Below, piece after piece: positions 11,160-59,140 of a stretch of 64,000 nt of DNA. The DNA comes from Ureibacillus manganicus DSM 26584 (GTDB lineage Bacteria; Bacillota; Bacilli; Bacillales_A; Planococcaceae). Location of the stretch: contig NZ_JPVN01000005.1 in the NCBI RefSeq assembly GCF_000772945.1, positions 124,001 to 188,000 on the forward strand, written 5' to 3'. The notes below the pieces were generated by a model that searched no databases, was not told where the DNA came from, and saw only the letters and a list, made by a program, of their open reading frames with translations. Position 1 is the stretch's first letter. Each line of letters starts with the position of its first letter. The position numbers were made by a program, and so were the translations under genes.

Positions 11160-11605
11160 TATTCTGATTTGTTGAACACGTCTATGGTACATTCTTTTAA
11201 GTTTCTTTACCTATTTGTCTCGTAGAACGACTCTATGAGACAATTCTCCCTAAATTCTATAGTGTTTTGTCTCATAGAACGGCTCTATGAGACAATTCTT
11301 CCTGGATTCTTTAGCGTAATGTCTCATAGGACTCTATAAGACAATTCTTCTTGGATTCTATAGCGTTTTGTCTCGTAGAACGACTCTATGAGACAATTCT
11401 CCCTAAATTCTTTAGTGTTTTGTCTCGTAGAACGTCTCTATGAGACAATTCTTCCTGGATACTTTAGCCTAATGTCTCATAGAACGACTCTATAAGACAA
11501 TTCTTCTTGGATTCTTTAGCGTTTTGTCTCGTAGAACGTCTCTATGCGACAATTCCTCCTGGCTTTTTTAGCGTTTTGTCTCGTAGAACGTCTCTTATTT
11601 CATTA
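11160..11605. repeat. Tandem palindrome array, 52-bp period (TTGTCTC-rTAGA type)
   Basis: Seven full units and one half unit; hairpins start near 11216, 11268, 11320, 11369, 11421, 11473, 11525 and 11577, spaced 52 bases except one 49-base step where three loop bases are missing. Each hairpin is TTGTCTCRTAGA / TCTATGAGACAA around a short loop containing ACG. Linkers resemble ATTCTTCCTGGATTCTTTAG. Lies downstream of rsiX and upstream of the ribU leader. Short frames inside it are not genes. The flank 10985-11160 shows nothing else. Confidence 0.9.
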
Positions 11606-11670
11606 CAATACTCTCATGGATAGTTTGCTTACATTTTCCATTGCCTCTATGATAATCACCTCTCGCATAA

Positions 11671-11702
11671 AAAAGAAACCCGCGCAACACCGCGCGGGTT
11701 TC
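11671..11702 (-). terminator. Terminator after rsiX
   Basis: Minus strand GAAACCCGCGC-GGTGTT-GCGCGGGTTTC followed by TTTTTT; strong. Confidence 0.92.
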
Positions 11703-11715
11703 ATCCTACATGTCC

Positions 11716-12954
11716 TTATTCAACCAACAATGGCAGCTTATTCGGCCCTACCGGTATTGGTAATGGATTTGTGAAATCAAATCCGCCCCAATCTGATTGT
11801 AAAACGTTTTCGAATTTCACTTCCATATTAAAGCTAGCCGCTGTTAATAAAATACCTTCTATCATTTGCATCGCTGCCACTTGATCGTAACTTAGTAAAT
11901 CAAGCTCAGAAGTAAATTCAACAATGACTGCTTCACCATTAACAGCAACTGTGTAATCTACCCCTGGTAATATAACTGATTGGAAAGGATCAGTTACCAC
12001 CAGTTTCATGTTTTCAAGTGCTTCTATCACAGTTGCATATGATTCACCACCATATGTTGATAAAAATACTGAACCATCATCCTGTGAAATTCTAAAATAA
12101 TTATTTTGAGTAGTTTCAGAGTGTAATTCTATTGGTTTTTCAATTAATCCAGTATGAGCGAATCCTGCAGGTGAACCATCTTCATTTAACAACACAGCTT
12201 GATTATATGATTTAAACGTATCCATTAATGACCTAATATATATACGTTCCGAAGCAGAACCCATATCATAACCATGATCCGGTGGTAGTGTATGGATCAC
12301 CTGATTTCCATTCTCGGAAATCGTTCCTTTATAAGGGTGGTAATCCTGGAAACCAATAGCTTCTTCGTTAAACAATGGAGCATAATAATTATACAGTTCC
12401 ACTCCAGTAGGATCCGGCTTCCCCAAATCTTCCATTACCTGTTCCTTCGGTATTAAAATAGTAAATGGAATGTTGTATGCTTGATCACCCGATAAACCTA
12501 TATGAAAAACAGTGTATCCTTCTAAATCTTCAGGATAAACGGATGTTCTCAAATTCATAGCATTATCATCTGCCATAATGCCAAACTCATTGGAATCAAG
12601 TCCTATTTTAGTTTCAGCAGACTCAGCATTAAATGCATTCATATCAGTAGATTCTTCGCTTGCTTCTCTAGCATCCATCGAACTAGTTGCAACTTCGTTT
12701 TTCCCACTATCCATTTGATTCATAAGTGAAGGAATCATTAGTGCAATTAAGGCAATAGCAGCGACAGTAATTAGCGGAGGAATCCAAGTGCGTTTTTTCT
12801 TAATGGTTACTGTTTTCTCTGAAGGCTCATCATCAAAAACACCATCGTCTTTTAGTCGCTTTAGGATCTCATCTTTTGTTCGATTGTCTTTCATTTTAGG
12901 AACAGAAGAAAGAAGGTCTTCGATTTTGTCGTCATCCCACTTATTTTGACTCAT
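11716..12954 (-). CDS. rsiX: Anti-sigma factor RsiX (membrane regulator of SigX)
   Basis: 412-residue protein with a short cytoplasmic N-terminus (about 1-55) that should hold the ECF sigma factor, one transmembrane helix at about 56-76 (PPLITVAAIALIALMIP), then a large extracellular region. The extracellular part begins with a low-complexity Ser/Glu/Asp segment (80-120), then two copies of a GerMN-like beta/alpha fold, judged by eye. The start overlaps the 3' end of sigX by 14 bases behind AAAGGAGG, the classic sigma/anti-sigma coupling. It is slightly longer than B. subtilis RsiX. Regulated release of SigX by envelope change is the family role. Confidence 0.85.
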   Translation of the reverse strand: MSQNKWDDDKIEDLLSSVPKMKDNRTKDEILKRLKDDGVFDDEPSEKTVTIKKKRTWIPPLITVAAIALIALMIPSLMNQMDSGKNEVATSSMDAREASEESTDMNAFNAESAETKIGLDSNEFGIMADDNAMNLRTSVYPEDLEGYTVFHIGLSGDQAYNIPFTILIPKEQVMEDLGKPDPTGVELYNYYAPLFNEEAIGFQDYHPYKGTISENGNQVIHTLPPDHGYDMGSASERIYIRSLMDTFKSYNQAVLLNEDGSPAGFAHTGLIEKPIELHSETTQNNYFRISQDDGSVFLSTYGGESYATVIEALENMKLVVTDPFQSVILPGVDYTVAVNGEAVIVEFTSELDLLSYDQVAAMQMIEGILLTAASFNMEVKFENVLQSDWGGFDFTNPLPIPVGPNKLPLLVE

Positions 12955-13483
12955 GTGACTTTGCCTCCTTTACAGTGTCATTCGTTAATAACTCCCTTAA
13001 ATGTTTAATCGCTCGATGTTGTGTCGTTTTAACTTTTCCTTCTGTCCAATTTAAGATTTCTGCTGTCTCAGCAATGGAAAGCTCTTGAAAATAGCGCATC
13101 ACAATTACCATTTTTTGATCACCTGTACATTTTTCCAGTGCTAAAAGTAGCTCTTGCATATCGTCGTTTAACTCTACTAATGCATCGGGTGATTTTGTAG
13201 GAGAAACTAGTTGGTTCGTCTCCCAATCAAAGGCATCGAATGTACGCGATGAACGTACTGAACTTTTCCGAAAATAGTCTATTGCAACATTTTTAGCAAT
13301 CGCAAATAGCCATGTTTTTTCAGAACTCTTACCCTCAAAACGATCGTAGGATTTTAACACCCTTACATATACTTCATGCGATAAATCCTCAGCAACTGAG
13401 CGATTTTTCACTAAATAAATTAGAAACTGAAAGACGTCTTGATGGTAAGTATCATACAAACGATGGAAAATGGACTCTTTCAT
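12941..13483 (-). CDS. sigX: ECF RNA polymerase sigma factor SigX
   Basis: 180-residue extracytoplasmic-function sigma factor. Region 2 (VAEDLSHEVYVRVLKSYDRFEG, then TWLFAIAKNVAIDYFRK) binds the -10, and region 4 (VIVMRYFQELSIAETAEILNWTEGKVKTTQHRAIKHLRELL) binds the -35. The position between resE and rsiX equals B. subtilis sigX, which controls cell-surface modification and resistance to cationic peptides. A well-matched ECF promoter 30 bases upstream implies autoregulation. The ATG at 13483 follows GGAGTG. Confidence 0.93.
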   Translation of the reverse strand: MKESIFHRLYDTYHQDVFQFLIYLVKNRSVAEDLSHEVYVRVLKSYDRFEGKSSEKTWLFAIAKNVAIDYFRKSSVRSSRTFDAFDWETNQLVSPTKSPDALVELNDDMQELLLALEKCTGDQKMVIVMRYFQELSIAETAEILNWTEGKVKTTQHRAIKHLRELLTNDTVKEAKSHESK

Positions 13484-13511
13484 CCATAACCACTCCCATT
13501 CTACTAAATTT

Positions 13512-13537
13512 GTCGTTTCAAACTGTTAAAAGTTACG
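13512..13537 (-). promoter_or_regulatory. ECF-type promoter of sigX-rsiX
   Basis: Minus strand CGTAAC (13537-13532), 16-base spacer, CGAC (13515-13512). This fits the TGTAAC-N16/17-CGWC pattern recognised by SigX/SigW-type factors and is 29 bases from the sigX start. Confidence 0.75.
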
Positions 13538-13562
13538 GTATCTAACACTTTTAAATTTTTCC

Positions 13563-13590
13563 AAAAAAGCAGGGAAAATGCATTCCCTGC
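13563..13590 (-). terminator. Terminator after resE
   Basis: Minus strand GCAGGGAATGCATTTTCCCTGC followed by TTTTTT. Confidence 0.88.
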
Positions 13591-13608
13591 TTATTGTAAA
13601 CGAATTCC

Positions 13609-15384
13609 TTATAGTGGTAAATAAAAAGTAAATGTCGTACCCCTACCAACTTCGCTATCTACTTTGATATTCCCTTTATGTGCCTCTACAATATTTCTAG
13701 CAATAGCTAACCCTAAGCCAGTTCCACTTTTTGAGCGGGTTCTTGCTTTATCAGCTTTATAAAAACGCTCAAATACAAATGGAAGATCTTCTCTCGGTAT
13801 TCCTTCACCAGTGTCAGATACATTTATCTTCACATAGGAAAGCTCTACCTCAAGTGAAACTGTCACACTTCCTTCCATCGGTGTATGACGAATCCCATTA
13901 TCGATCAAGTTCGTTAATACTTGTTCAATACGATCCTCATCCAAGTCCACATGTAAGTCATCTGAGAGTTCGGTCTCAAATTCAAGGTGGACATGCTTTT
14001 CTTTTGCGACTTGTGCGAATTTTTGTGTGATTCGTTCAATCACGTGGACAATTGGTATGTTCTCTTTAAATAATGTAACATTGCCTGATTCCATTCTTGC
14101 TAAGTCTAATAGGTCTGAAACAAGTCTTCCCATACGTTGGGACTCATCGTAAATAATACGAATCATTTCGTTTCGTTCTTCTTCACTTGAAACGACGTCA
14201 TCTATAATAGCCTCGGAGTATCCTTGTAGCATTGCAATAGGTGTTCTAAGTTCATGAGACACATTGGCGATAAAGTCCGAACGTAATTTTTCCAATTTCT
14301 TTTGTTCCGTCATATCTCGAATAACTGCAACTGCACCACGAATGGATTGTCCATTATTTTTCAGCGGACTAATTGAAATATTATAACTTGATCCTTTAAT
14401 GTCTAATTCTTCTTCGATTTTATCCTCAAAATCAAGTACATGATCAAGCATATGGTATATTTCATCTGGAATTGGGCTGCCACTCGTAGCATTTTGTTTA
14501 ATGAACCATTTTTGCAATAGTATGTCGGCAGGTGGATTACTTAAAAGAATTGTTCGATCACGATTGAACGTAATTACCGCATCTGTCATAGACGTTAATA
14601 TACTCGATAACTGTTCTTTTTCCTGATTTATCACTTCTAAGTGATGTTTCAGCTGACGGCCCATTTGGTTAAATGCGACCGCTAATTGACCAATCTCATC
14701 GTTTTGTGTGGAAGGTAATTGGCCATCGAATTTCCCTTTAGCTAACTCAAATGCATGTTCACGCATTTTTCTTAACGGTAACGTAATTTTGCTAGATAAG
14801 AAAAATGCAAAGAAAGTAGTTAACAAGAAGGCAATAGCTGCGGATAAAAAGACGATTTTCGTTGTTTGGCTAGTCGTTTTCAAAAGCGCATCAGGGTTTT
14901 GGAAGATAAATATTGCCCCATGGACTTCTGATTCACTTTTTAGCGGATAACCTAAAACGACATAGGATTCTAACTGATCTTTTTCCTTTTGAGAGGGAAG
15001 AATCATTTCATTGATAATCTGTCGATCGGTTTCAAATACTTGTTTAAATGCATCACTAGTTAAAATGTTATTTTGTATTTCTACTTGATTGATCCCTGTT
15101 TGAAATGAGGAAGACACTTCGTTTGGATTTTTTGCGATAAATGCATTAATATCAGCACTTAATAAATCACCAATAATGTCATCTAAAAACTCATCCACTT
15201 CATATTGGTCAACGATGTTGGCAATGGTTGCGGCTGTATTACTTATTGAAGTTTTTGCTTGTTCTTTGTGGTAATTGTCAAAAAACTCAAGCATTAACAC
15301 CGTGAAAATGAATAATACAAATGAAACGAGAAGCAATATGGTTGCCCATAGCTTCCCGACAATACTATTCCATATTCTAGTCAT
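13609..15384 (-). CDS. resE: Sensor histidine kinase ResE
   Basis: 591-residue membrane kinase. Two transmembrane helices (about 12-34 and 176-200) bracket an extracellular sensor; then HAMP (about 200-252), a PAS domain (about 262-360), a HisKA domain with phospho-acceptor SHELRTPIAM, and an HATPase with NLIDNGIRH (N box), DTGEGIP (G1), FERFYKAD (F box) and GTGLGL (G2). It pairs with ResD, whose gene overlaps its start by 8 bases. In B. subtilis ResE responds to oxygen limitation and nitric oxide through the PAS/extracytoplasmic parts and activates respiration genes, including resABC. Confidence 0.96.
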   Translation of the reverse strand: MTRIWNSIVGKLWATILLLVSFVLFIFTVLMLEFFDNYHKEQAKTSISNTAATIANIVDQYEVDEFLDDIIGDLLSADINAFIAKNPNEVSSSFQTGINQVEIQNNILTSDAFKQVFETDRQIINEMILPSQKEKDQLESYVVLGYPLKSESEVHGAIFIFQNPDALLKTTSQTTKIVFLSAAIAFLLTTFFAFFLSSKITLPLRKMREHAFELAKGKFDGQLPSTQNDEIGQLAVAFNQMGRQLKHHLEVINQEKEQLSSILTSMTDAVITFNRDRTILLSNPPADILLQKWFIKQNATSGSPIPDEIYHMLDHVLDFEDKIEEELDIKGSSYNISISPLKNNGQSIRGAVAVIRDMTEQKKLEKLRSDFIANVSHELRTPIAMLQGYSEAIIDDVVSSEEERNEMIRIIYDESQRMGRLVSDLLDLARMESGNVTLFKENIPIVHVIERITQKFAQVAKEKHVHLEFETELSDDLHVDLDEDRIEQVLTNLIDNGIRHTPMEGSVTVSLEVELSYVKINVSDTGEGIPREDLPFVFERFYKADKARTRSKSGTGLGLAIARNIVEAHKGNIKVDSEVGRGTTFTFYLPL

Positions 15385-16093
15385 TGACTACCTCAAATTT
15401 ATAGCCAACGCCCCAAACAGTTACGATCATTTTCGCCGCATTTTCTGAGACACGGTTTAACTTTTCACGTAAACGTTTCACATGCGTATCTACAGTACGA
15501 AGATCTCCGAAGAAATCATAATGCCAAACTTCTTTTAGTAATTGTTCACGGTCAAAAACTTTGTCTGGCGATTTTGCTAAAAAGTATAGCAATTCATATT
15601 CTTTAGGTGTTAAGTTCACTTCTGTTCCATCAGCAGTAACGCGATGTGCATCGTGGTCAATTGTTAAGTGTGGAAATACAACTAAGTCCTTTGATGCAGA
15701 TGTATTTGATACTGGTGAAAATGCTGCTGAACGACGTAAGATTGCTTTCACACGTAATACTACTTCACGTGGACTAAAAGGTTTTACTATGTAATCATCT
15801 GCACCTAGTTCAAACCCTTGAACTCTGTTTGCTTCTTCACCTTTTGCAGTTAAAAGAATTATAGGTGTTACTTTCTTTTCACGAAGTTCTTGGCAAACTT
15901 GAAGCCCATCTTTTTCAGGCATCATAATATCCAATAAAATACAGCTATATTCTTTCTCGAATGCTTTTGCGAGAGCGACTTCACCATTTTCAGCTTCTTC
16001 TACTTCATATCCTTCTCGTTCTAAATACATTTTCAATAAACGACGAATACGATCCTCATCGTCTACGACTAATATAGAAATATTTTCAGACAT
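15377..16093 (-). CDS. resD: Response regulator ResD
   Basis: OmpR/PhoB-type regulator, 238 residues. Receiver with acidic pair (VVDDEDR), phospho-Asp in LLDIMMPEKDG and switch residues in LLTAKGEE and IVKPF; C-terminal winged helix (NLTPKEYELLYFL through TVDTHVKRLREKL). The ATG at 16093 follows GAGGGG; an earlier start adds a short unlikely tail. Partner of ResE in aerobic/anaerobic respiratory control. A 182-base gap from resC holds a hairpin, so resDE may be partly uncoupled from resABC as in B. subtilis. Confidence 0.96.
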   Translation of the reverse strand: MSENISILVVDDEDRIRRLLKMYLEREGYEVEEAENGEVALAKAFEKEYSCILLDIMMPEKDGLQVCQELREKKVTPIILLTAKGEEANRVQGFELGADDYIVKPFSPREVVLRVKAILRRSAAFSPVSNTSASKDLVVFPHLTIDHDAHRVTADGTEVNLTPKEYELLYFLAKSPDKVFDREQLLKEVWHYDFFGDLRTVDTHVKRLREKLNRVSENAAKMIVTVWGVGYKFEVVND

Positions 16094-16162
16094 AGGTTTT
16101 ACCCCTCTCATTCTTCTCTACTATTATTGTACTATTTATGCAAAAAAATGAAAAGAATATAA

Positions 16163-16191
16163 AGCGAAATAGGACTTTTCTCTATTTCGAT
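16163..16191 (-). terminator. Weak hairpin between resC and resD
   Basis: CGAAATAG, 9-base loop, CTATTTCG at 16165-16189, followed on the minus strand by CTTTATATTC rather than a real T-run. Perhaps an attenuator or processing site separating resABC from resDE messages. Confidence 0.4.
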
Positions 16192-16274
16192 CTATAGTTT
16201 AATCTGTTTTACAGCTAAATGTTAAATAGAAAGAAAGCTCTCCCTTATAAGAAGAACTTTCGATAATCCTAATA

Positions 16275-17462
16275 TTATGCGTATGAGTGTAGACCAGCGA
16301 TTACTAAGTTTACTACAACTAGGTTAAAGATAATAATTGCAAAACCGATTAATGCAAGCCATGCACTTTTATTGCCTTCCCAACCTTTTGACAGTCGTAA
16401 GTGAAGGAAAGCTGCATAGAATAACCAAGTAATTAGAGCCCAAACTTCTTTTGGATCCCAACCCCAGAATCGACCCCAAGCCTCTTGTGCCCAAATCATA
16501 GCAAAGACAAGTGCCCCTAATGAGAATACTGGGAATCCAATTAATACAGAACGATAACCAATTTCATCAAATAGTTGTAAGTTCACTTTCTTAACTAATG
16601 GTTTAAGCATGTCAGCTATTCGTCTTCTCGCAATTAATCGAATTAAGATATACAGAATTGTACCAACAATTATTGCCCAAACAACTGTTGTTAATTTTAA
16701 AGCATGGATGAATGCTGGCACTTCAATCATCGGATCCATCGCACCTTCAGTAAGTGTTGCAGATTCATTCATTCCGAAAATCGCAGGAACATTATAAATA
16801 ATTTCTTGTGACATTCCGTTTTTATCTACATAAGAATACTGTGCTTCATAACCAACTGCATTAAATACAGCTGAAGTGACAATATTTCCTAAAATAAGTA
16901 CTAAGAAATATAAAATTGCTTCAAGCCAAAAACGTTGCTTCCCTTTTTTCTTTGTATCAACATCTTTTAACAAATAAATTAGACCTGCAACTGCACTAAT
17001 AGCCAATATTGACTGACCTAATGCTGCTGTAATAACGTGTATCGTTAACCAATGACTTTGTAATGATGGAACTAATGGAGTAACATCTTGCGGGAACATT
17101 CCTGCCCAAGCAATAATTAACAATGCAATTGGTAAAGCTACTAATCCAAGAGCTGTAACACGGTACATAAAGAAAATTAATATAAACGACCCAACTAAGA
17201 ACATACCAAACGCCGTTGTAAATTCGAACATATTACTCACTGGTGCATGTCCTGAATGAATCCAACGTGTGATAAAATATCCTATATGAGATAGGAATCC
17301 TATTATCGTAACTAAAATTGCGAGATTTCCCCATTTGTTAGCACGTTTTTCTGCTCCATCTGGCTTGTTACTTTTAATCGAACCACCGATTAATAGTGTA
17401 GCAATTAAATAAGCAATAAATGCAACTTCTAATAAATTACCACTTAAATCAATTAAACTCAT
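16275..17462 (-). CDS. resC: Cytochrome c biogenesis protein ResC (CcsA-type haem handler)
   Basis: System II cytochrome c maturation protein, 395 residues, about eight transmembrane helices. The tryptophan-rich haem-binding WWD motif is seen as [18 protein letters not shown] (about residues 322-339), with histidines in nearby loops as axial ligands. With ResB it moves haem outward and attaches it to apocytochrome CXXCH sites. It is 33 bases downstream of resB in the same operon. Confidence 0.96.
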
Positions 17463-17495
17463 AAGGTGTTGTCACCTTTCCTTTTCATATACAAT

Positions 17496-19166
17496 CTAAT
17501 TTTTTTGATCCTCTTGATCGTTTTCTTCATCTTTATCTTTATCTTTTTCATCATCTAACTGGTCAATATACTGTGGTAGATGTGCATGTTCAGTAATAGC
17601 ATCAAGATCTTTCTTAATACTAAACCAGTTTTTGTTTGTATGTGCTGCTAAACGTATTTGCCCATTTTCAAATTGTTGAATCCAAATACGGCGGTGGTTC
17701 CAATAAGATCCTATTGCTAGGCCTAATAAGAAAATAAACCCACCCACAAATAAAATTGGAATTGTTTTGTCCATTCGGATTGTTAATCCTGACATGTTAA
17801 TAGTATCTATCCCTGAAAATGCCATTTTGTACGTGTTATCTCCTGCTGGCTCAACTGTTTGTTGAATCGCAACAAAGCTTATTTCTCCATCTGGATGTTC
17901 TGGTGTAATCATATTAAAAATGAATGCTGGATTATTTGGGTTCGGAGATAACGTTTGTGGTTCACCTTCATTATTAAAACCTGAAAAGTCAGGATAGAAT
18001 TCCATTAGCTCTACTTTAGTATTTTCATCAATTACATATTCTTTTTTTGGATTTCTTAAATCAACTGCTACCTCACCTAATGCTTCACCAGTTTCCTTAT
18101 TCGTTAACTGGAATGACATTTCCTTTAATTCATTTAATCGAAAATCCATTTGATATAGTGCATATCCATTATGCTCTAATGGATGATTTACTCGAATTGA
18201 ATATTCTTTCACCACTTCTAAATTATCAGTTTGTCCTGGTAATGCATCTTCGGCTTGCTTGTATAATACAATATCAGTTTGATAGTTTTTTGCAACCGCA
18301 TTCACACCTTGCTGTATTTGAGCAGTTGTCGGATCATTATCGTGTGTTTCGAAAATAAATTGTTTATTTTCTAAGAAGTAACCTTCCATTCCAGGAATAG
18401 CACGAGTTTCTCCTTCGCGAATCCACATAGACTCATCAACATAGACACCTGGAAATTTGTGCATTAACACGCCAATTAAGAAAATTATTAAACCTACATG
18501 GTTGATATAAGGCCCGTAACGAGAAAATCTTCCTTTTTCAGCCAATAGAGCTTCTCCATCACGACGAACTTTATAATTTAATTTTTTCATTTTTTCTTCT
18601 ACTACATCTAACACTTTAGAAGAATCGCTTGATGGTACATAACCTTCTGCAATAACACGTTGGCGTTTCATAAAACTTTCATGACGACGTACACGTTGAT
18701 TTTTTAAAGATTTATGTAGAGGTATTCCACGGTCAATACTAGCAACGATTATTGATATACCTAACATTGCAACAAGAACAAGATACCAAATTTGGTTGTA
18801 TAAATCAGAAAAACCTAAAGTATAATAAAGCTTTCCAAAACTACCATATGAATCTTCATAGAATGCAGCTCTGCCTGCTTCATTCCCTGCGGCTACAAAC
18901 GCTTCTTGTTTAAGAATTGTCCCAATGGAAGATACGACTAGTGTAATAATAATTAATGCGACCCCTACTTTTACACTAGAAAAGAAATTCCAAACTTTAT
19001 CTACAATTGACTTGTTGTAAGTTTTAGAGCGGATGGCAGAACCGTCGTATTTCATATCTAAAACTTTTTGAGATTTTGCTTCTTCCGTTAATGGTCTACC
19101 ACAGTTTACGCAAATTTTCGTTCCAACAGGGTTTTCATGACCACAAACGCAAACATTTTTTTCCAT
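17496..19166 (-). CDS. resB: Cytochrome c biogenesis protein ResB (Ccs1)
   Basis: System II component, 556 residues. An N-terminal zinc-ribbon-like knuckle (C6, C8, C19, C22: CVCGHENPVGTKICVNCG) is followed by the ResB core SVKVGVALIIITLVVSSIG, four transmembrane helices and a large outer domain between the third and fourth. The C-terminus is strongly acidic/lysine-rich (DDEKDKDKDEENDQEDQ). The zinc knuckle is also present in B. subtilis ResB. Works with ResC and gets reduced apocytochrome from ResA. Confidence 0.95.
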   Translation of the reverse strand: MEKNVCVCGHENPVGTKICVNCGRPLTEEAKSQKVLDMKYDGSAIRSKTYNKSIVDKVWNFFSSVKVGVALIIITLVVSSIGTILKQEAFVAAGNEAGRAAFYEDSYGSFGKLYYTLGFSDLYNQIWYLVLVAMLGISIIVASIDRGIPLHKSLKNQRVRRHESFMKRQRVIAEGYVPSSDSSKVLDVVEEKMKKLNYKVRRDGEALLAEKGRFSRYGPYINHVGLIIFLIGVLMHKFPGVYVDESMWIREGETRAIPGMEGYFLENKQFIFETHDNDPTTAQIQQGVNAVAKNYQTDIVLYKQAEDALPGQTDNLEVVKEYSIRVNHPLEHNGYALYQMDFRLNELKEMSFQLTNKETGEALGEVAVDLRNPKKEYVIDENTKVELMEFYPDFSGFNNEGEPQTLSPNPNNPAFIFNMITPEHPDGEISFVAIQQTVEPAGDNTYKMAFSGIDTINMSGLTIRMDKTIPILFVGGFIFLLGLAIGSYWNHRRIWIQQFENGQIRLAAHTNKNWFSIKKDLDAITEHAHLPQYIDQLDDEKDKDKDEENDQEDQKN

Positions 19167-24079: not shown

Positions 24080-24362
24080 GATTTGTCCTCGAAAAGCAGG
24101 TTCGAGGACATTTTTTCGGTTTTCGAGAAATTTTTGTCCTTGAGAAGCATGTTCGAGGACAATTTTCCGGTTTTCCAGTGATTTTTGTCCTCGAGAAGCA
24201 TTTTCGTGGACAATTTTCCGGTTTTCCAGTGATTTTTGTCCTCGAAAAGCATTTTCGAGGACAATTTTCCGGTTTTCCAGTGATTTTTGTCCTCGAGAAG
24301 CATTTTCGAGGACAGTTTTCCCGTTTTCCAGTGATTTTTGTCCTCGAGGAGCCAGTTCGACC
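24080..24362. repeat. Tandem palindrome array, 51-bp period (GTCCTCGAG type, linker 1)
   Basis: Five hairpins plus a decayed sixth, spaced 51 bases (stem starts near 24083, 24134, 24187, 24238, 24289). Hairpin TTGTCCTCGAR-AAGCNNN-YTCGAGGACAA; linker close to TTTTCCGGTTTTCCAGTGAT. In the first and fourth units both stem partners change (CTCGAA with TTCGAG). Lies between convergent ypuF and ribT. The flank 24363-24525 shows nothing else. Overlapping open frames on both strands follow the 3-fold period and are not genes. Confidence 0.92.
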
Positions 24363-46120: not shown

Positions 46121-46184
46121 AGTTTTATGATTTGTGTGGGTTTTAGGGTTGGTTAGACGTATGTTTGGACAAAATTTCGGTATT

Positions 46185-46875
46185 CTTAATTTTTTTGTCC
46201 TCGAGAAGTGATCTCGAGGACAAGTTTTCGATATTCTTGATGCTTTTGTCCTCGAGAAGCGGTCTCGAGGACAAGTTTTCGATATTCTTGATGTTTTTGT
46301 CCTCGAGAAGCGGCCTCGAGGACAACTTTTCGGTATTCTTGATGTTTTTGTCCTCGAGAAGCGGTCTCGAGGACAAGTTTTCGATATTCTTGATGTTTTT
46401 GTCCTCGAGAAGCGTTCTCGAGGACAACTTTTCGATATTCTTGATGTTTTTGTCCTCGAGAAGCGGCCTCGAGGACAACTTTTCGGTATTCTTGATGTTT
46501 TTGTCCTCGAGAAGCGGTCTCGAGGACAAGTTTTCGATATTCTTGATGTTTTTGTCCTCGAGAAGCGTTCTCGAGGACAACTTTTCGATATTCTTGATGT
46601 TTTTGTCCTCGAGAAGCGGCCTCGAGGACAACTTTTCGGTATTCTTGATGTTTTTGTCCTCGAGAAGCGGTCTCGAGGACAAGTTTTCGATATTCTTGAT
46701 GTTTTTGTCCTCGAGAAGCGTTCTCGAGGACAAGTTTTCGATATTCTTGATGCTTTTGTCCTCGAGAAGCGGTTTCGAGGACAATTTTTCGATATTCTTG
46801 ATTTTTTTGTCCTTGAGAAGCGGTGTCATGGACAGTTCTCACAAGTATTCTGATTGTTTTGTCCATGAAAAAACG
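46185..46875. repeat. Tandem palindrome array, 51-bp period (GTCCTCGAG type, linker 2) with 153-bp higher-order repeat
   Basis: Thirteen hairpins at 51-base steps from about 46198 to 46810, plus a decayed half. Hairpin TTGTCCTCGAG-AAGCNNT-CTCGAGGACAA (11-bp perfect stem, XhoI-like core), linker near GTTTTCGATATTCTTGATGT. Loop and linker variants repeat in threes (units 3-5, 6-8, 9-11), i.e. 153-bp higher-order copies that are identical for the first two and nearly so for the third. Lies between convergent permease and yqkK. Open frames of up to 262 codons in three frames arise because 51 is divisible by 3; none has a gene-like composition. Confidence 0.95.
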
Positions 46876-51447: not shown

Positions 51448-51499
51448 ACTATCCCTCCTAAAATTGAATTGAAAATCTAAAAGAACAATGAGCAAAAAC

Positions 51500-52769: not shown

Positions 52770-52911
52770 TGGTATTCATCTCCTCAAATGTATATTGTTT
52801 ACTTAACAAAATTATCCTACCATATTTCCTGACTCAAAACGCGGAATATTCAAAATTGTTGATATTTTTACACAATTTACACAATTTACAACATAATTTA
52901 CATTTCCTTAA

Positions 52912-52943
52912 TTGACAACTATTTCCTTTAGGTGTAAATTACA
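52912..52943 (+). promoter_or_regulatory. phaQP promoter with overlapping palindrome
   Basis: TTGACA (52912-52917), 17-base spacer, TAAATT (52935-52940). TGTAAATTACA (52933-52943), a perfect palindrome, overlaps the -10. Upstream, three spaced copies of the ACAATTTAC/TAATTTAC motif (52870-52903) run toward the divergent phaRBC promoter. Candidate operators of PhaQ, a PadR-type repressor known to regulate phaQP. Confidence 0.6.
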
Positions 52944-52983
52944 TATATAGTCTTTTTAATATTATTCAGAAAGTAGGTGACAT

Positions 52984-53655
52984 ATGATGGAATCAAATCA
53001 ATCGAAAAAAAATAGTCCTACATTAGGTGCACCAAAGAATTTCCTCATTCCAATTATGCTTTTACATCTACGTGACTGGAATGCGCATGGTTATGAATTG
53101 ATTGAAAAACTTACGAAATTTGGAATTAATTCTTTAGATCATGGAAATTTCTATCGTACTTTAAGACAACTTGAAAAAGATTCACTCGTAACATCTGTTT
53201 GGGATACAACTTCTGGTGGTCCTGCAAAACGCATCTATTCTTTAACAGAAGCTGGAGAACAGTATCTAGATATGTGGGCAGGATCATTAAGTGAATATCA
53301 AAAAATGTTAAATTCTTTTTTCAACTTATATAATCCATTCAACTTTAATTTCTCCACTACACCTACGAAAAGTAAGCCTGTTAAAGATACGACTGAAACC
53401 GTTGAAAAAGAATCGAAACCAAATGTAGATTCTGTGAACAAAACTGAAAACAATGACGCTTTGACAGAAATTACTGTAGCTAATGAAAAAACAACAATTG
53501 AAAAACAACAAAAAACGGTAGTTACAAATACTACCGCTACTAAACCAGCTGCTAAAAAAACTACAACTAAACGCACAACTAAGCCTAAAACTCCAAAGAC
53601 TACTCAATCGACAGCAAAAGCATCTGCGAGCTCACAATCAACCGAAAACGATTAA
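52984..53655 (+). CDS. phaQ: PHA-responsive PadR-family repressor PhaQ with long basic tail
   Basis: 223 residues. The N-terminal PadR winged helix (about 16-95) shows FLIPIMLLHLRDWNAHGYELIEKL, DHGNFYRTLRQLEKDSLV and SGGPAKRIYSLTEAGEQYL; family PhaQ is about 145 residues. The extra C-terminal 80 residues are low complexity: an acidic/Asn section then a Lys/Thr/Pro/Ala tail (KPAAKKTTTKRTTKPKTPK) like histone H1 or AlgP. In B. megaterium PhaQ senses PHB and controls phaQ-phaP. The second Met (52987) has better spacing to AGGTGA. Confidence 0.9.
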   Translation: MMESNQSKKNSPTLGAPKNFLIPIMLLHLRDWNAHGYELIEKLTKFGINSLDHGNFYRTLRQLEKDSLVTSVWDTTSGGPAKRIYSLTEAGEQYLDMWAGSLSEYQKMLNSFFNLYNPFNFNFSTTPTKSKPVKDTTETVEKESKPNVDSVNKTENNDALTEITVANEKTTIEKQQKTVVTNTTATKPAAKKTTTKRTTKPKTPKTTQSTAKASASSQSTEND

Positions 53656-53733
53656 TTAGGATGTTATGCAAATTATTGCATTCATTATAAATTGTGAAAC
53701 TGTTTTTAAAATTAAAGGAGGATTACAAAGATT

Positions 53734-54228
53734 ATGGCAAATGAACAACTTGCAAAAAACGTCGATTTTTTATGGGATGGTTGGTTTAACAGTCTAAAAT
53801 CATTCCAACAGCTTCAAGATGATATTGAAAACAAAACTTTACAAGCTTTTAACTATCAAAAAGAATTACTTGATTCAACTGTTTCTACGTTACAAACAAT
53901 TGAAAACGAATCTAAAAAGGCTTCAAAAGAGTACCAAGAGAAATTACAAAGCACTTTTAATGAATTAAACAAAAATGGCCAAATGGATCAAGTATCAAAC
54001 TGGATTGAAAGTGTTCAAGAAATTACTGACAAAGCTCAACATTTAGCTTGGAAGCCTAGCAACACAATTTTCGAACTTATCACAACTTCTCAATTGAATT
54101 GGGAAGCTACAGTTAAAAACGTACTTGACCAACAAAAACATGAGCGTGATGAAACATTCACTAAAATTGAAGAGTTAACTTCACAAATGAAAGAAACTCA
54201 CAAAAAATTATTAGCGGTTAACGAATAA
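53734..54228 (+). CDS. phaP: Phasin-like PHA granule protein PhaP
   Basis: 164 residues, entirely helical and amphipathic with no signal peptide; starts NVDFLWDGWFNSLKSFQQLQDDIENKTLQAF, as in Bacillus PhaP. Coats PHB granules and promotes synthesis. It follows phaQ in the same operon, and AAAGGAGG lies 12 bases before the ATG. A terminator follows. Confidence 0.9.
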   Translation: MANEQLAKNVDFLWDGWFNSLKSFQQLQDDIENKTLQAFNYQKELLDSTVSTLQTIENESKKASKEYQEKLQSTFNELNKNGQMDQVSNWIESVQEITDKAQHLAWKPSNTIFELITTSQLNWEATVKNVLDQQKHERDETFTKIEELTSQMKETHKKLLAVNE

Positions 54229-54276
54229 CTCGAATTCGTTAACATTGTGTACCCCCTGAAATACACATAAATAATT

Positions 54277-54311
54277 ATCCCTACCCCAAATTGTGAGGTA
54301 GGGATTTTTTT
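54277..54311 (+). terminator. Terminator after phaP
   Basis: ATCCCTACC, loop, GGTAGGGAT then TTTTTT. Confidence 0.9.
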
Positions 54312-54356
54312 CTATTTAATTTTGTCTCGCTATCTATTAGAAAGGTAATCACTCCT

Positions 54357-54785
54357 CTAGTAGGTTAAATGCTTAATCGGCTTCAACCAGCCACATTCTG
54401 ATTCTTCTTTATTAAATGCTAAGAACGAATCATTAATCTGTCCTAGAGATTGAAACAGGTCTAAATCGAGCATACGTGAGCCTTCACATACAGCTTCGAT
54501 ATAATATTTACGCAGTTTTATTTTTATTTCACCTTTTAGTTGATGTTCGATTTTCAGTACTTCACCTGTAAATGACGTATTTGGGAATCGATCTTGTAAA
54601 TGTTCAAGGATATGGCCTTTCACACTCGATTCCTCTAACGGCTCGCATATAAAACTGAGTTGCCTGCTTACAGAGGACTCTTTTACTTCATCTGTTGTAC
54701 GTACCATTTCTAAAAGCATGCGTTCTCTACCAAAAATAAATGACTGATATTCTTTTCTTATATTAAAAATTGAATAAATTCTCAT
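54357..54785 (-). CDS. sirA: Sporulation inhibitor of replication SirA (YneE)
   Basis: 142 residues. The N-terminal IYSIFNIRKEYQSFIFGRERMLLEM and C-terminal SECGWLKPIKH match the SirA pattern (FGRE near the start, GW-x-P-x-K at the end). SirA, made under Spo0A control, binds DnaA domain I and blocks new rounds of replication at sporulation. In B. subtilis sirA is between tkt and yneF; here it is separated from both. AAAGGAGG precedes the ATG. Confidence 0.82.
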   Translation of the reverse strand: MRIYSIFNIRKEYQSFIFGRERMLLEMVRTTDEVKESSVSRQLSFICEPLEESSVKGHILEHLQDRFPNTSFTGEVLKIEHQLKGEIKIKLRKYYIEAVCEGSRMLDLDLFQSLGQINDSFLAFNKEESECGWLKPIKHLTY

Positions 54786-54877
54786 ATGGATTTGTCCTCC
54801 TTTCCTTAATTGCTATTATACATAAACTATTCTGAATATTTTGTCACATACTGTCATGAGTTCAGTTCTATTTTTGT

Positions 54878-55020
54878 CAAAATACCGGATACAGTGAAAC
54901 TTCCATCAGTGGAGGATCTTTTCACTCCGCTGATGGTTAGTTGAACCAATCGGGGTATTAGCGTCCGTTAACTCCCCCCTATCTTTTTCAGGAGGAGTTT
55001 TACGGACGGTTATACCGGGA
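54878..55020 (+). ncRNA. Structured element upstream of liaI (two long hairpins plus closing stem)
   Basis: Hairpin 1: CCATCAGTGGAG (54903-54914) with CTCCGCTGATGG (54925-54936), continuous apart from one G-T wobble. Hairpin 2: CGTCCGTTAACTCC (54962-54975) with GGAGTTTTACGGACG (54994-55008). AATACC (54881) and GGTATT (54954) can close hairpin 1. No frame or T-run accompanies them. GC content is higher than around. I cannot name the family with certainty; Bacillaceae-1 RNA (Rfam) is one possibility to test. Could be a leader RNA of lia or an independent RNA. Confidence 0.6.
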
Positions 55021-55046
55021 GAAACTCATAAATAGCACTGTATTCC

Positions 55047-55076
55047 TAGTTCGACTCAGTCTCAAGACCTAGTTGA
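55047..55076 (+). promoter_or_regulatory. Candidate LiaR-type operator upstream of liaI
   Basis: CTAG, then TTCGACTCAGTCTCAAGAC, then CTAG: a partly symmetric region containing GTCT-CA-AGAC, about 80 bases before liaI. It is similar in kind to the LiaR boxes before B. subtilis liaI, but I could not assign a -35/-10 pair. Confidence 0.35.
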
Positions 55077-55152
55077 AAATCCATTTACAGTCCGTTTTAG
55101 AAAAATCGTGAGGAAGGTAACATAAAGGTATCAACGAAAGGAGTTAACGAAA

Positions 55153-55509
55153 ATGAAAAAACTATTATTATTAATTGCCGGAGGAATTACTTTCATCATT
55201 GCAATTGCGATGGTTGGTCCAATTATTGGTCTTGCGTTTTCAGCGCTATTAATCTTCCTTGCAATGCACTTCTATGTAAAAAGTAAGACAACTTTTTCAA
55301 AAGTTATGTGGATTATCTTAGGAATTATCGGTGTACTATCTGCTATCTCGAATATTCCAGCGGTTATCGGAATTGTCGCAATCGTCGTTCTATATGTACT
55401 TTATAAAAAATGGAAAGACGAAGATGTAAAAGTTGACTTCCCAAAAACAACTAAAAAAGACGATCCATTTACAAACTTTGAAAGAGAATGGTCAAACTTA
55501 ACTAAATAA
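55153..55509 (+). CDS. liaI: LiaI-like small membrane protein
   Basis: 118 residues with about four short hydrophobic helices and a hydrophilic C-terminus ending DDPFTNFEREWSNLTK. In B. subtilis LiaI anchors the PspA homologue LiaH to the membrane under envelope stress; the short size, membrane character and position before liaH fit this role. AAAGGAG precedes the ATG. Confidence 0.8.
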   Translation: MKKLLLLIAGGITFIIAIAMVGPIIGLAFSALLIFLAMHFYVKSKTTFSKVMWIILGIIGVLSAISNIPAVIGIVAIVVLYVLYKKWKDEDVKVDFPKTTKKDDPFTNFEREWSNLTK

Positions 55510-55510
55510 C

Positions 55511-55537
55511 AGTAGGGGTGGAATCCCCTCCCCTACT
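55511..55537 (+). other. Hairpin between liaI and liaH
   Basis: AGTAGGGG, 11-base loop, CCCCTACT, with no T-run, in the 59-base gap. It might stabilise the liaI message or block run-through. Confidence 0.6.
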
Positions 55538-55568
55538 ACAACTTTAACTACGAGGAGAGAATAAAAAA

Positions 55569-56225
55569 ATGACAAGTTTATTAACAAGATTTAAGTACCA
55601 AATTCAAGCGGATTTACACGAGTTGTTTGACAAAAAAGAAAATAAAAACCCAATCGCCATGCTAAACCAATACATTCGTGAAGCAGAAAAACAAACAGAA
55701 CAAACAGGTAAACTTCTTCAAAGACAAGTGGAATTAAAAGACAAACTCGATCGCGAATTAAAAGAAACAGCAACTATGTTGGAAAAACGTTCTGCCCAAC
55801 TAGTGCTTGCATTAGAATCAAATGAAGCAGATTTAATTGCTTTTGCTGAGCAAGAAGTTGCAGTTTACAAAGTGCGCAAAGAAACTTTAATTACTAGTCT
55901 AGAGACTGCGAAAGTTCAAGTTTTCGAGCTTGAAAGCAAATATGAAACAATGAAACATAAAATTAAAGATATGAAAGTTCGTCAATTGCAGTTGATGGGG
56001 AAAGAAAATGTAGTCCGTGCACATCACAAAATGGATCATGTCATTGAATCTAAAAATGATGTAAGTTTTGAAGACATTTCAGCTTATATTGACCATCTAT
56101 CAACTAAAATTGATAAAAAATATGAAGTAACAATGCTAGAAACACGTTTGGCACAACTAGAAAAAAATAAAGCAGTTTCGACACCTACATTACAAGTAGA
56201 AACTTCTAACGAACAAGCAATGTAA
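55569..56225 (+). CDS. liaH: PspA/IM30-family envelope stress protein LiaH
   Basis: 218 residues. Long coiled-coil helices, N-terminal TRFKYQIQADLHELFDKKENKNPIAMLNQYIREAE typical of PspA/LiaH. Forms rings or filaments that support the stressed membrane. Made with liaI from the strongly inducible lia promoter. GAGGAG precedes the ATG. Confidence 0.94.
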   Translation: MTSLLTRFKYQIQADLHELFDKKENKNPIAMLNQYIREAEKQTEQTGKLLQRQVELKDKLDRELKETATMLEKRSAQLVLALESNEADLIAFAEQEVAVYKVRKETLITSLETAKVQVFELESKYETMKHKIKDMKVRQLQLMGKENVVRAHHKMDHVIESKNDVSFEDISAYIDHLSTKIDKKYEVTMLETRLAQLEKNKAVSTPTLQVETSNEQAM

Positions 56226-56236
56226 TGGTATAATTA

Positions 56237-56284
56237 GTAAGAATATTAAGGAGAAAGCAGCTTTTACGCTTTCTCTCTTCTTAC
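56237..56284 (+). other. Long hairpin between liaH and liaF (attenuator candidate)
   Basis: GTAAGAA paired with TTCTTAC and, inside, GAGAAAGC with GCTTTCTC; bulged 48-base hairpin without a T-run, right after the liaH stop. It could limit read-through from the strong liaIH promoter into liaFSR. Confidence 0.6.
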
Positions 56285-56321
56285 GTTAACGCACTCACAT
56301 GATATAAAGGAGGTACCTGAT

Positions 56322-57005
56322 ATGAACAAATTTACAACCGACCAACTGACAACTGGACTCATTATTTTACTTTTAATTGTATTTGCTGAGCTAACTGTTT
56401 TTAATAACGGTGGTGCCTTCCTTCTTATCATTAGTGGATTTTTACTCTATTTTAGTTTTAAAAAGCGTAATAAAATTATGTTTTGGGTTGGCTGTTTCTT
56501 TGCCTTTTTAGCGGTTTTAAACGTAACTTCTTTGCGATTATTTGTCATCGCTACCCTAATTTACATGCTCTATAAGCAATATAAAAAACCACAGGATGAC
56601 ATTATTGTAGATGGAGCAGCTTTTGAAAAAGGCGCAATACATAAAAATGATTTGATTGGGTCAATATCTCCCCCACTAGAAGCATACAAATGGCAAGACG
56701 TTCATATTCAGCGGTTTCTCGGTAACATTACGATTGATACGACACAAACGATATTGCCTGTAGGGACATCGGTTATTACGATTCGTCAATCCATTGGGAA
56801 AGTGACAGTCGTTGTTCCTTACGATATTCCGTTCCGATTACAATATTCGACGATTTTAGGTGAGGTCAAACTCCCCGGGAAACCATCGAAACGATTAATG
56901 AATGAAAATCTACTTATTACTGATGGTGAAGCCGATGGAGCAAAACGAAAACTCGTCATCCACGTTGCAACCTGGTTAGGTGATGTGGAGGTGGTCAGAC
57001 AATGA
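56322..57005 (+). CDS. liaF: LiaF negative regulator membrane protein
   Basis: 227 residues. N-terminal half has four transmembrane helices (about 12-90); the C-terminal soluble beta domain (IQRFLGNITIDTTQTILPVGTSVITIRQSIGKVTVVVP, STILGEVKLPG, TWLGDVEVVRQ) is the LiaF/cell-wall-active antibiotic response domain. In B. subtilis it holds LiaS in phosphatase mode. AAAGGAGG precedes the ATG. Overlaps liaS by 4 bases. Confidence 0.93.
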   Translation: MNKFTTDQLTTGLIILLLIVFAELTVFNNGGAFLLIISGFLLYFSFKKRNKIMFWVGCFFAFLAVLNVTSLRLFVIATLIYMLYKQYKKPQDDIIVDGAAFEKGAIHKNDLIGSISPPLEAYKWQDVHIQRFLGNITIDTTQTILPVGTSVITIRQSIGKVTVVVPYDIPFRLQYSTILGEVKLPGKPSKRLMNENLLITDGEADGAKRKLVIHVATWLGDVEVVRQ

Positions 57006-58075
57006 TTGCATTTGTCATTCGTACTTTTACAATGTTTATGCTACTGAGCACGATGATGTTTATGTTCTTTTTTATCCTCCTTGGTGAACCTGTCGAAGAA
57101 ACATTCCGACCACTTTGGGAAGATCGCTATGAGAACATGCCGATCGTTGCCTATTTCGTTATTGCGATTTTTGTTATAAGTTGTGTGATCAGCATTTGGA
57201 TGGCGATTGCCTCAAAGACAAGAGAAACTTTGGCAATCAAATATGTGAAACAGTTAGTTGACCCAGAGTTCTCATTGGAAAAGAAGCGAAATATTCCAAG
57301 AGCTTTAAGAAAAGCATTACTTCAAACAAGTGAACTTATCGAAACCCAGCGCAACAGCTTACAAAAGCTAACAAATGAAAGAGTGGACTCAAACGATGTC
57401 ATTATTCAAGAACGAATTGTTCAAGAAAGACAACGTTTAGCTCGCGAACTTCACGATTCTGTTTCACAACAATTATTTGCCGCATCAATGTTACTATCGG
57501 CATTAACCGAACAAGGCCAAGGCGATGAAAAATCTCAAAAGACACTCCAGCAAGTGGAGAAAATCGTTCAACAAGCACAACTTGAGATGAGAGCGTTACT
57601 TCTTCATTTACGCCCTATTGCACTTCGCAACAATACACTTGCAGAAGGTTTAACAGGGCTTGTGATTGAATTAAAACAGAAGGTTAATTTTGTAATAGAC
57701 TATAACATTGAAGAAATTGTACTTTCAAAGGCAGAGGAAGATCATTTATTCCGCATTGCACAAGAAGCATTATCAAATACATTACGCCATTCAAAAGCAA
57801 CAGAGGTTGAATTGTTACTAATCGCACGCGAAAATATCGCAATTTTACGTATTCAAGATAATGGTCGTGGTTTTAATGTTGAGGATGATAGTAAAACGAC
57901 TTCTTATGGGTTGAAAAATATTGCTGAACGCGCAGTTGAAATTGGATGTACCTATAAGATTGTATCTGTTCCTGACGAAGGGACGATTGTGGAAGTGAAG
58001 GTACCATTAAAGAATCGTACTATAACGGCTGAACCTTTGAAACTAGAAGATGCTTCTGAAAGTGATTCTATGTAA
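57002..58075 (+). CDS. liaS: Sensor histidine kinase LiaS
   Basis: 357 residues. Two transmembrane helices (about 5-25 and 45-65) with a very short extracellular loop (intramembrane-sensing type). HisKA_3 with phospho-His in RQRLARELHDSVSQQLF, then HATPase with RIAQEALSNTLRHSKA (N box), DNGRGFN (G1) and TSYGLKNIAERA (G2). Responds with LiaF to lipid II-cycle antibiotics such as bacitracin and activates LiaR. Confidence 0.95.
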   Translation: MIAFVIRTFTMFMLLSTMMFMFFFILLGEPVEETFRPLWEDRYENMPIVAYFVIAIFVISCVISIWMAIASKTRETLAIKYVKQLVDPEFSLEKKRNIPRALRKALLQTSELIETQRNSLQKLTNERVDSNDVIIQERIVQERQRLARELHDSVSQQLFAASMLLSALTEQGQGDEKSQKTLQQVEKIVQQAQLEMRALLLHLRPIALRNNTLAEGLTGLVIELKQKVNFVIDYNIEEIVLSKAEEDHLFRIAQEALSNTLRHSKATEVELLLIARENIAILRIQDNGRGFNVEDDSKTTSYGLKNIAERAVEIGCTYKIVSVPDEGTIVEVKVPLKNRTITAEPLKLEDASESDSM

Positions 58076-58099
58076 TATTTTTTAGATTGGGGTGGGAAA

Positions 58100-58735
58100 A
58101 TGATTAATGTGTTGATTGTGGATGATCATGAAATGGTGCGGATTGGGGTTTCTGCTTATCTATCAGCGCAACCTGATATGACAGTTGTCGGTGAAGCAGA
58201 AAACGGCAAAGAAGCTGTGGAATTGGCATTGAGCTTGCGTCCAGATTTAATTTTAATGGATAATGTAATGCCTGTCATGACCGGTGCCGAAGCAACTGCT
58301 GAGATTTTGAAACAATGGCCAGATGCCAAGATTATGATGGTCACCAGTTTCCTAGATGATGATAAAGTATACCCTGCCCTTGAAGCAGGTGCAGTTAGCT
58401 ATATCTTGAAAACGTCTAATGCGAAGCAAATTGCTGATGCAATACGAAAGACGATGAGCGGTGAATCCGTTTTAGAGCCTGAGGTTACGACGAAGATGAT
58501 GCAAAGAATGCGCTCCAATACAACAGTTGCTTTACATGAACAATTAACGGATCGCGAAATGGAAGTCCTACTTCTTGTAGCACAAGGCAAAACGAATCAA
58601 GAAATCGCAGATGAATTATTTATTGCTTTAAAAACTGTTAAAACACATGTAAGTAACATTTTAGCGAAGCTAGATGTTCAAGATCGTACCCAAGCAGTTG
58701 TGTATGCGTTTCACAATGGATTGGTGAAAAAATAA
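58100..58735 (+). CDS. liaR: Response regulator LiaR
   Basis: 211 residues, NarL/FixJ family. Receiver with acidic pocket (VDDHE), phospho-acceptor D54 in LILMDNVMP, and a LuxR-type helix-turn-helix ([40 protein letters not shown]). Activates liaIH. Lies 24 bases after liaS. The 58.8-kb array starts directly afterwards. Confidence 0.95.
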
Positions 58736-58774
58736 ATAAAATATAATCGATGTAATTGATCAAATTGAATTTAT

Positions 58775-59140
58775 GAAGCGGCTTCGGGGACAAATTTTCC
58801 GATATTTTCTGTTTTTTGTCCTCGAGATGAGGTTTCGAGGACAAGTATATGTAATTTTTGGCTTTTTTGTCCTCGAGACGTGGTTTCGAGGACAAGTTTA
58901 TGTAATTTCTGGCTTTTTTGTCCTCGAGACGCGGTTTCGAGGACAAGTTTATGTAATTACTGGATTTTTTGTCCTCGAGACGCGTCTCGAAGACACTTTT
59001 CTTATAGTTTCAGTCTTTTTGTCCTCGAGATGCGGTTTCGAGGACAAGTTTACGAAAATTTTAGTTTTTTTGTTCTCGAAAGTGGGTTTCGAGAACGAAT
59101 TTCCGTTATTTTCAGTTTTTCTGTCCTCGAGAAGCCACAT
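58775..59140. repeat. Tandem palindrome array, 51-bp period (GTCCTCGAG type, linker 3)
   Basis: Six hairpins at 51-base steps from about 58818, with decayed halves at both ends. Hairpin GTCCTCGAGACGCGG-TTTCGAGGAC family, linker near AAGTTTATGTAATTTCTGGC. Unit 6 (59072-59096) is GTTCTCGAAA with TTTCGAGAAC: both stem bases changed together relative to its neighbours. Lies between convergent liaR and the first chemoreceptor gene. Open frames inside are artefacts. Confidence 0.93.

Follow-up and report, generated by a model that had tools for sequence, protein, structure and literature searches.

Oriented arrays of 51- and 52-bp hairpin units in Ureibacillus: a candidate satellite family that follows the replication fork

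Five Hairpin Arrays in a 64-kb Window

A 64,000-nucleotide stretch of the Ureibacillus manganicus DSM 26584 genome (contig NZ_JPVN01000005.1, positions 124,001 to 188,000; hereafter the window) carries five arrays of short tandem repeats in the DNA between its genes. A first-pass annotation, made from the letters alone, had described them as five intergenic arrays with units of 51-52 bp, and this description was confirmed by Tandem Repeats Finder (TRF) and by autocorrelation, which located the arrays and gave periods of 52, 51, 52, 51 and 51 bp (Table 1); the other TRF rows of the window were short, with scores of at most 61. The hairpins of the arrays at 11, 24, 46 and 58 kb exceeded those of composition shuffles (p 0.005-0.01). 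The consensus hairpin of C32, taken alone, was not significant against shuffles (p 0.08); a longer stem with two mismatches can be drawn by eye.

The A11 unit consists of the hairpin TTGTCTCrTAGAACGnCTCTATGAGACAA, within the array pattern TTGTCTCrTAGAAC...CTATGAGACAA, and a 23-bp linker. The arrays at 24, 46 and 58 kb have the core GTCCTCGAG in common, as proposed, and D46 is organized as a higher-order repeat of three units (153 bp). The annotated array at 32 kb is present but, at roughly 1.08 kb, is longer than had been claimed, and two subfamilies, GGGCACATAGAACGC and GGGCACTGA, meet in it.

B24 begins 6 bp past the stop codon of a DUF309 gene, in the gap between this gene and a GNAT gene. 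C32 sits at the 3' end of a leftward gene for pyrimidine-nucleoside phosphorylase, D46 between an amino-acid permease gene and a small open reading frame (ORF), and E58 between a LiaR-like gene and a convergent chemotaxis-receptor gene, bounded by the stop of the former and by a terminator-like hairpin ahead of the latter. Three of the gaps are convergent, as first described, and at 11 and 32 kb both neighbors point leftward. These contexts come from a simple ORF caller, whose '+' neighbor for A11 is contradicted by a riboswitch and ribU. A coding role was rejected: the 52-bp units break the reading frame, and the long ORFs in 51-bp arrays were judged spurious.

Table 1. Arrays of the window, with a transposase gene pair from the related closed genome G013. 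Strand (-) is the purine-rich strand, which is leading by local skew.
Feature	Position	Strand	Description
Array A11	11160..11600	(-)	~7.6 copies of 52 bp; hairpin p 0.01; TRF
Array B24	24082..24360	(-)	5.5 copies of 51 bp; hairpin GTCCTCGAG; convergent gap
Array C32	32145..33226	(-)	52 bp; two adjoining subfamilies, 9.8 + 9.9 copies
Array D46	46167..46824	(-)	12.9 copies of 51 bp; convergent gap
Array E58	58793..59140	(-)	6.3 copies of 51 bp; convergent gap
istA/istB-like pair	L248 3136-5441 (G013)		Between two arrays; name is our own reading

Unit Length and Gene Context Across Genomes

The arrays of the window belong to a larger population. Non-coding arrays with a TRF score of at least 100 were counted in 857 kb of the U. 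manganicus genome (4.05 Mb in 81 contigs), the window included, and in 400 kb of each of three closed genomes of relatives, G005, G013 and G002 (1.2 Mb). In U. manganicus 23 of the 25 arrays are built on 51 or 52 bp, including one that TRF lists with a period of 236 yet is made of 51s; the other two have periods of 85 and 38 bp. Fifteen of the 20 arrays in the relatives have a period of 52 or 104; among the remainder (38, 82, 93, 111 and 270 bp) some are perhaps coding. Neighboring units, defined by an ungapped match of at least 70%, are spaced by 51 or 52 bp in 314 of 326 intervals. The five arrays that lie within called genes in these samples (score at least 120) all have other periods, namely 18, 21, 39, 129 and 48. 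The unit length seen in the window is thus found throughout the sampled parts of U. manganicus and of the relatives, in support of the first annotation.

Further afield, arrays of 21, 41 or 42 bp occur at Lysinibacillus, Metasolibacillus and U. thermosphaericus loci, and several of the 21/42-bp arrays of Lysinibacillus sit in the gap 3' of liaR. The 20 regions from 12 other genera of the family, six of them shorter than 15 kb, yielded one array, with a period of 119, a sample too small for a test of periods.

Several observations accompany this survey. The 85-bp array of U. manganicus (L045, 7304-7705) has 4.8 copies and lies between leftward genes. The 38-bp hairpin array of G005 (L146, 17874-18097), TGTGACTGACGCAAAGCTTTCGTCACA plus 11 bp, is a separate family. 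Four U. manganicus contigs stop in or at arrays (L035 at the end of C62, L037 at the end of C36, L038 at the start of C1 and L047 at the start of C20), so the assembly breaks there. A search of the window against Rfam at the gathering score returned FMN, glycine and Bacillaceae-1 only, none of them inside an array; the Bacillaceae-1 small RNA match lies at 61081-61147, about 2 kb from E58.

The arrays avoid divergent gaps, which agrees with the placement at 3' gene ends that the annotation had noted for the five at hand. Of the 29 gaps with an array in the stretches sampled, 28 are convergent or codirectional and one is divergent, compared with 222 divergent among all 1121 gaps (Fisher p 0.018, leaving aside 19 codirectional gaps for which the strand could not be assigned). 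Of 38 arrays that could be scored in the closed genomes, 34 lie outside divergent gaps. Both tallies rest on the rough ORF caller.

A Conserved Hairpin with Drifting Linkers

The unit consists of a 27-nt hairpin, with a foot that is mostly TGTC...GACA, and a linker of 24 or 25 nt, and follows the next one head to tail at intervals of 51 or 52 bp. Before alignment, each consensus unit was rotated to give its best hairpin, with the pyrimidine-rich strand setting its orientation. Of 44 array-consensus rows, 34 align without gaps as TTTTGTC-stem-loop-stem-GACA-TTC, with only G14 and C38 invariant; the ten dropped beforehand had 26-nt centers, were near-duplicates, or had an unclear hairpin or orientation, and E58, with a 26-nt center, is among those unused. 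Arrays L037:17694 and L078:20490 were also left out of the alignment, and three arrays were skipped in the within-array analysis.

Across arrays, the two sides of the stem mostly change together, and neither strand seems to be preferred. Doubly changed stem cells number 86, against 28.9 +/- 4.6 in shuffled rows, and the stem covariation score is 0.578 against 0.165. Cells are paired in 85% of cases, compared with 61.7% in shuffled rows and 37-47% with slid partners, a measure that the rotation of rows to their best hairpin favors. Within arrays, the stem diverges least (0.042), followed by the loop (0.108) and the linker (0.133). Single stem changes within arrays give G-T (36) about as often as A-C (40), which argues that the constraint acts on DNA and not on one transcript; together with the 13 G-U pairs among 318 paired cells (summed by hand), this led us to reject an RNA-level structure.

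The claim that the hairpin is kept while the linker is not was borne out: between U. manganicus arrays the hairpins are 50% identical and the outer linkers 32% (0.317, against 0.272 shuffled). The related claim that each array has its own linker holds in part, in that outer linkers are near random between arrays; they are not wholly independent, given the 34 rows that form one gap-free family. A covariance model built from the aligned rows and run at a threshold of E 0.01 matched 16 of 25 Ureibacillus genomes (matches were listed up to about 150 per genome, so that counts are lower bounds), and found no match in the other nine. The exact core GTCCTCGA is absent from 60 other genomes; relatives reveal the family only through the structure model.

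Orientation with Respect to Replication

Comparing array orientation with origin and terminus, a check proposed with the first annotation, revealed a near-uniform polarity that its reader had missed. Origins and termini of the closed genomes were taken from GC skew, with origins at position 0 in G005 and G013 and at 2.45 Mb in G002; the G002 terminus is bracketed between 0.12 and 0.30 Mb, and 0.15 was used. Local skew near that terminus agrees at L250 (-0.083) and is +0.019 at L249, where no array scored 100. No polarity count includes arrays of other periods.

In the three closed genomes all of the arrays scored, 54 of 54, have the purine-rich strand as the leading one. These came from sampled stretches and from model matches and include eight pairs in which an insertion element has cut one array in two, leaving about 46 independent loci; eight further places in G002 stand outside the count. 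Among arrays from evenly spaced stretches, picked without the model, all 15 follow the rule (two split pairs included), and by local skew so do 22 of 23 arrays in U. manganicus. The model matches listed for G005 and G013 are all '-' below 1.73 Mb and all '+' above 2.5 Mb (the list covers part of 163 matches), and 31 of the 32 match clusters listed for G002 follow the replichore.

The polarity is visible in the array sequence itself. The word GACAAAA, found at the 3' foot of the hairpin on the purine-rich strand in U. manganicus, G013 and G002, occurs 345 times on the leading strand of arrays and 8 times on the lagging strand, and the purine fraction of the leading strand is 0.61 in arrays, hairpin included, compared with 0.50-0.53 in other intergenic DNA. 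The fetched arrays nearest to the assumed origins lie 210 kb (G005), 242 kb (G013) and 347 kb (G002) away.

Arrays occur in 15 of 615 gaps between two leading-strand genes and in 2 of 95 between two lagging-strand genes. The five closed-genome arrays called between two lagging-strand genes all follow replication, and replication thus seems a better correlate than transcription, in a small number of cases: Pfam confirms the gene before the array for L239 and L251, one flank of L197:13229 is a transposase ORF, and short ORFs with no Pfam match are among the other neighbors.

A strand split was also seen outside the genus, on scaffold C1 of Lysinibacillus sphaericus OT4b.31 (G062), where the 25 matches of the 21-bp TATCAGCG arrays from 1.13 to 1.90 Mb are all '-' and the three from 2.0 to 2.9 Mb all '+', the origin not being located; TATCAGCG had no match in L. 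sphaericus strain 2362.

Turnover of Arrays and the Elements Inserted in Them

Within many arrays the best-matching units lie two to four units apart, and in others further apart, and edge units are less faithful to the consensus (identity 0.855) than inner units (0.916). To us this suggests concerted evolution in which blocks, often of two to four units, are duplicated; such homogenization within arrays lets each drift to its own linker. The annotation had called the pattern the reverse of ordinary local duplication, a view that found no support: the arrays are one family by sequence, and block repeats with eroded edges are what satellites have.

Comparison of gaps between species indicates that arrays are gained repeatedly. 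The nearest liaS-like protein is from U. acetophenoni (86% identical), in which the gap corresponding to E58 has no array, a terminator-like hairpin coming shortly after the stop of liaR. In U. aquaedulcis the same gap holds a 52-bp array, beyond its terminator-like hairpin. From this gap, array gain appears to be recurrent. The gap of the D46 permease in U. acetophenoni holds an array of a different subfamily, GGGCACATAG, a hint that array position is conserved between species.

Several arrays of the relatives are split by elements of about 1.5 kb. Those of L240 (G005) and L263 (G002) contain genes for Mutator-type (IS256-like) transposases; L237 (G005) and L255 (G002) have the same or nearly the same ORFs, L236 (G005) matches L237 and L240, and L250, L257 and L261 (G002) have another element in common. 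At the junctions read, the elements sit between short direct repeats made of array sequence, and by our own reading the insertion falls inside the hairpin in seven of eight cases, too few to claim targeting. The elements land in arrays, and nothing suggests that they made them. The earlier statement that no transposase is in view holds for the window; the relatives' arrays do contain transposase genes, but as insertions. A phage or plasmid origin was rejected, since the D46 array had no match among plasmids and phages and the core pattern none in viral contigs.

A Proposed Hairpin Satellite and Its Rivals

We tentatively favor a reading in which the five arrays are members of a single family of hairpin satellites, dispersed in Ureibacillus, that would come into being or persist in just one direction with respect to the replication fork. 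The hairpin would act as DNA and not as a transcript. The lagging-strand template, which is single-stranded at the fork, would carry the purine-rich strand, and hairpins folding on it may promote slippage or template switching, which would both multiply units and repair stems toward perfect palindromes. If arrays form in one orientation alone, or are stable in one alone, survivors would point one way, and the observed orientation would follow. Arrays would persist in 3' intergenic DNA, where they break neither promoters nor genes, and a dedicated host function would be unnecessary.

Several results weigh against this model. Of five covariation measures, two stay at the level of shuffles (9 pairs with a double change, 8.4 in shuffles, and 26 further pair types, 23.3 in shuffles), and within arrays three stem changes are compensated against 142 single. 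The similarity of units is flat with distance, at 0.83-0.87 over one to six units. Two arrays point the opposite way, L120:2640 in U. manganicus, which is well kept (15 copies, 85% match), and a model-listed G002 array at about 3.995 Mb, one of the eight places outside the 54; the opposite orientation is therefore not simply unstable. In G005 the word GACAAAA is infrequent in arrays (6). Since a hairpin can form on either strand, it must be the linker or the loop that holds the asymmetry. The model offers no route to new loci, and by a rough estimate made by hand unit length is conserved more closely than descent would predict by itself, a hint of selection.

In a second, rather doubtful explanation the arrays are polar landmarks of the chromosome, their hairpin and spacing being read directionally by a translocase, a helicase-nuclease or a replisome component, in the manner of KOPS/SRS or Chi sites. 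The orientation and tight spacing of the arrays agree with it, as does the distance of every fetched array from the origins. No short word is common to the arrays. GAGAAGGG occurs 19 times on the leading and never on the lagging strand over all arrays, but is absent from those of G005 and G013; GAAGCGG counts 46 to 0 in favor of the leading strand in the three relatives but is absent in G013 and reversed in U. manganicus (3 leading, 17 lagging). The near-random outer linkers and the nine genomes of the genus with no model match also speak against a landmark. In its broadest form, which we hold to be unlikely as well, sequence would turn over freely while selection keeps unit length, a DNA-level hairpin and fork orientation, the arrays would serve a replication, repair or segregation machine, and the Lysinibacillus arrays of 21 bp, strand-split in one strain, would represent this system built on a different unit.

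The constancy of spacing could alternatively reflect an array of binding sites for an architectural protein, as the annotation had suggested, with hairpins on one face of the DNA every five helical turns. Both 21 and 52 bp are near whole turns, and the Lysinibacillus 21/42-bp arrays occupy the liaR 3' gap, in line with such a role. We consider it improbable: a dimer that reads sequence leaves the paired change of stems across arrays unexplained, the 38-bp hairpin array of G005 amounts to 3.6 turns, arrays of 82 and 85 bp occur elsewhere, 51 stands beside 52, and shared descent can itself yield an equal period and explains part of the constancy.

No more credence can be given to terminators that work in one direction and halt transcription moving toward the fork. 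D46 has 12 units resembling intrinsic terminators, on the '+' strand only, and terminator-like units are found head-on far more often than on the other strand (49 against 7 in U. manganicus and 35 against 1 in the relatives). Such sites are common in a few U. manganicus arrays, however, and number 36 in about 677 units of the relatives, and the arrays are about equally frequent in gaps between leading-strand and between lagging-strand genes, the former having no head-on gene ends. The termination barrier put forward in the first-pass annotation thus lost ground.

Mobilization by a Y1 transposase (of the REP-associated tyrosine transposase, RAYT, or IS200 type), acting on REP-like (repetitive extragenic palindromic) repeats in the single-stranded lagging-strand template, could give oriented insertions, and IS200/IS605 transposases do insert into the lagging-strand template according to the part of the literature consulted (PMC6006769). 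The covarying hairpin, extragenic location and replication orientation suit this route, and Y1_Tnp (PF01797) is present in 9 of the 16 genomes with model matches. It was not found in the other seven, which include U. manganicus, G002 and G013, yet is present in five of the nine genomes with no match, and the arrays have no constant GTAG-type foot; we judge this route very unlikely. Least probable is a plain strand-specific mutation bias on neutral repeats, which would account for the generally positive GC skew and mostly positive AT skew of the leading strand but not for the purine excess of arrays over other intergenic DNA or the strand bias of the specific word GACAAAA.

Relation to Known Repeat Systems

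No description of this array family was found in the literature searched, which is no proof of absence. It can be set beside several known systems. CRISPR arrays were rejected, as the linkers are near uniform within an array and not unique spacers. The FtsK-orienting polar sequences (KOPS), the SpoIIIE recognition sequences (SRS) and Chi resemble the arrays in polarity: the orientation of KOPS is described as following the replichore (PMC2680272, consulted in part), as that of the arrays does in 54 of 54 and 22 of 23 cases with one listed G002 exception. They are 5-8 bp words spread over the genome, whereas the arrays have no shared word. For Chi the motifs are AGCGG and GAAGCGG, and such words are scattered genome-wide; in the arrays the leading-to-lagging counts of AGCGG are 85:0 in G002, 17:0 in G005, 0:1 in G013 and 12:20 in U. 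manganicus. KOPS/SRS or Chi as a shared signal was rejected, there being no common word across arrays.

Tandem arrays with locus-specific sequence are known as well. The repeats of Borgs, in the portion of the report consulted, likewise form many head-to-tail arrays whose sequence is specific to the locus and whose composition is biased by replichore strand, but they have perfect units of several lengths, lie about half in genes, and are described there with no conserved hairpin (PMC9879509). The CGTC-tagged palindromic repeats are also palindromic with no dedicated transposase; the part of that report consulted places them in five other phyla and not in Firmicutes (PMC3733652), and their invariant CGTC tag is absent from the Ureibacillus arrays. 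A similar scale, about 50 bp, is found in the intergenic tandem repeats of mycobacteria (mycobacterial interspersed repetitive units-variable number tandem repeats, MIRU-VNTR), for which we know of no hairpin covariation or replication polarity.

As a kind, the arrays are close to REP-type palindromes, the short extragenic palindromes of REP elements, bacterial interspersed mosaic elements (BIME) and REPIN, which occur in many copies, often near the 3' ends of genes, and which also serve as hosts of insertion sequences. They lack three REP/BIME features that were tested: the foot varies (TGTC, GGGC, AGGT, AGTG and others) where REP elements have one of GTAG/CGTC type, units run head to tail in the arrays inspected where those of BIME alternate, and a Y1 gene does not accompany the arrays throughout. 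The 51/52-bp spacing and the polarity with respect to replication set them further apart. Transposases, termination or gyrase are the usual explanations for extragenic palindromes in bacteria. The Ureibacillus family, with no consistent transposase, keeps its hairpin, its unit length and, most strictly of all, its orientation to the fork, while its sequence turns over from locus to locus. Such order is unexpected in what looks like spacer DNA, and the arrays offer a natural system in which to ask whether tandem repeats are born and kept in one fork orientation, or whether satellite-like arrays are used by bacteria as polar marks, both questions being testable in Bacillus subtilis 168 and in culturable spore-forming bacteria.

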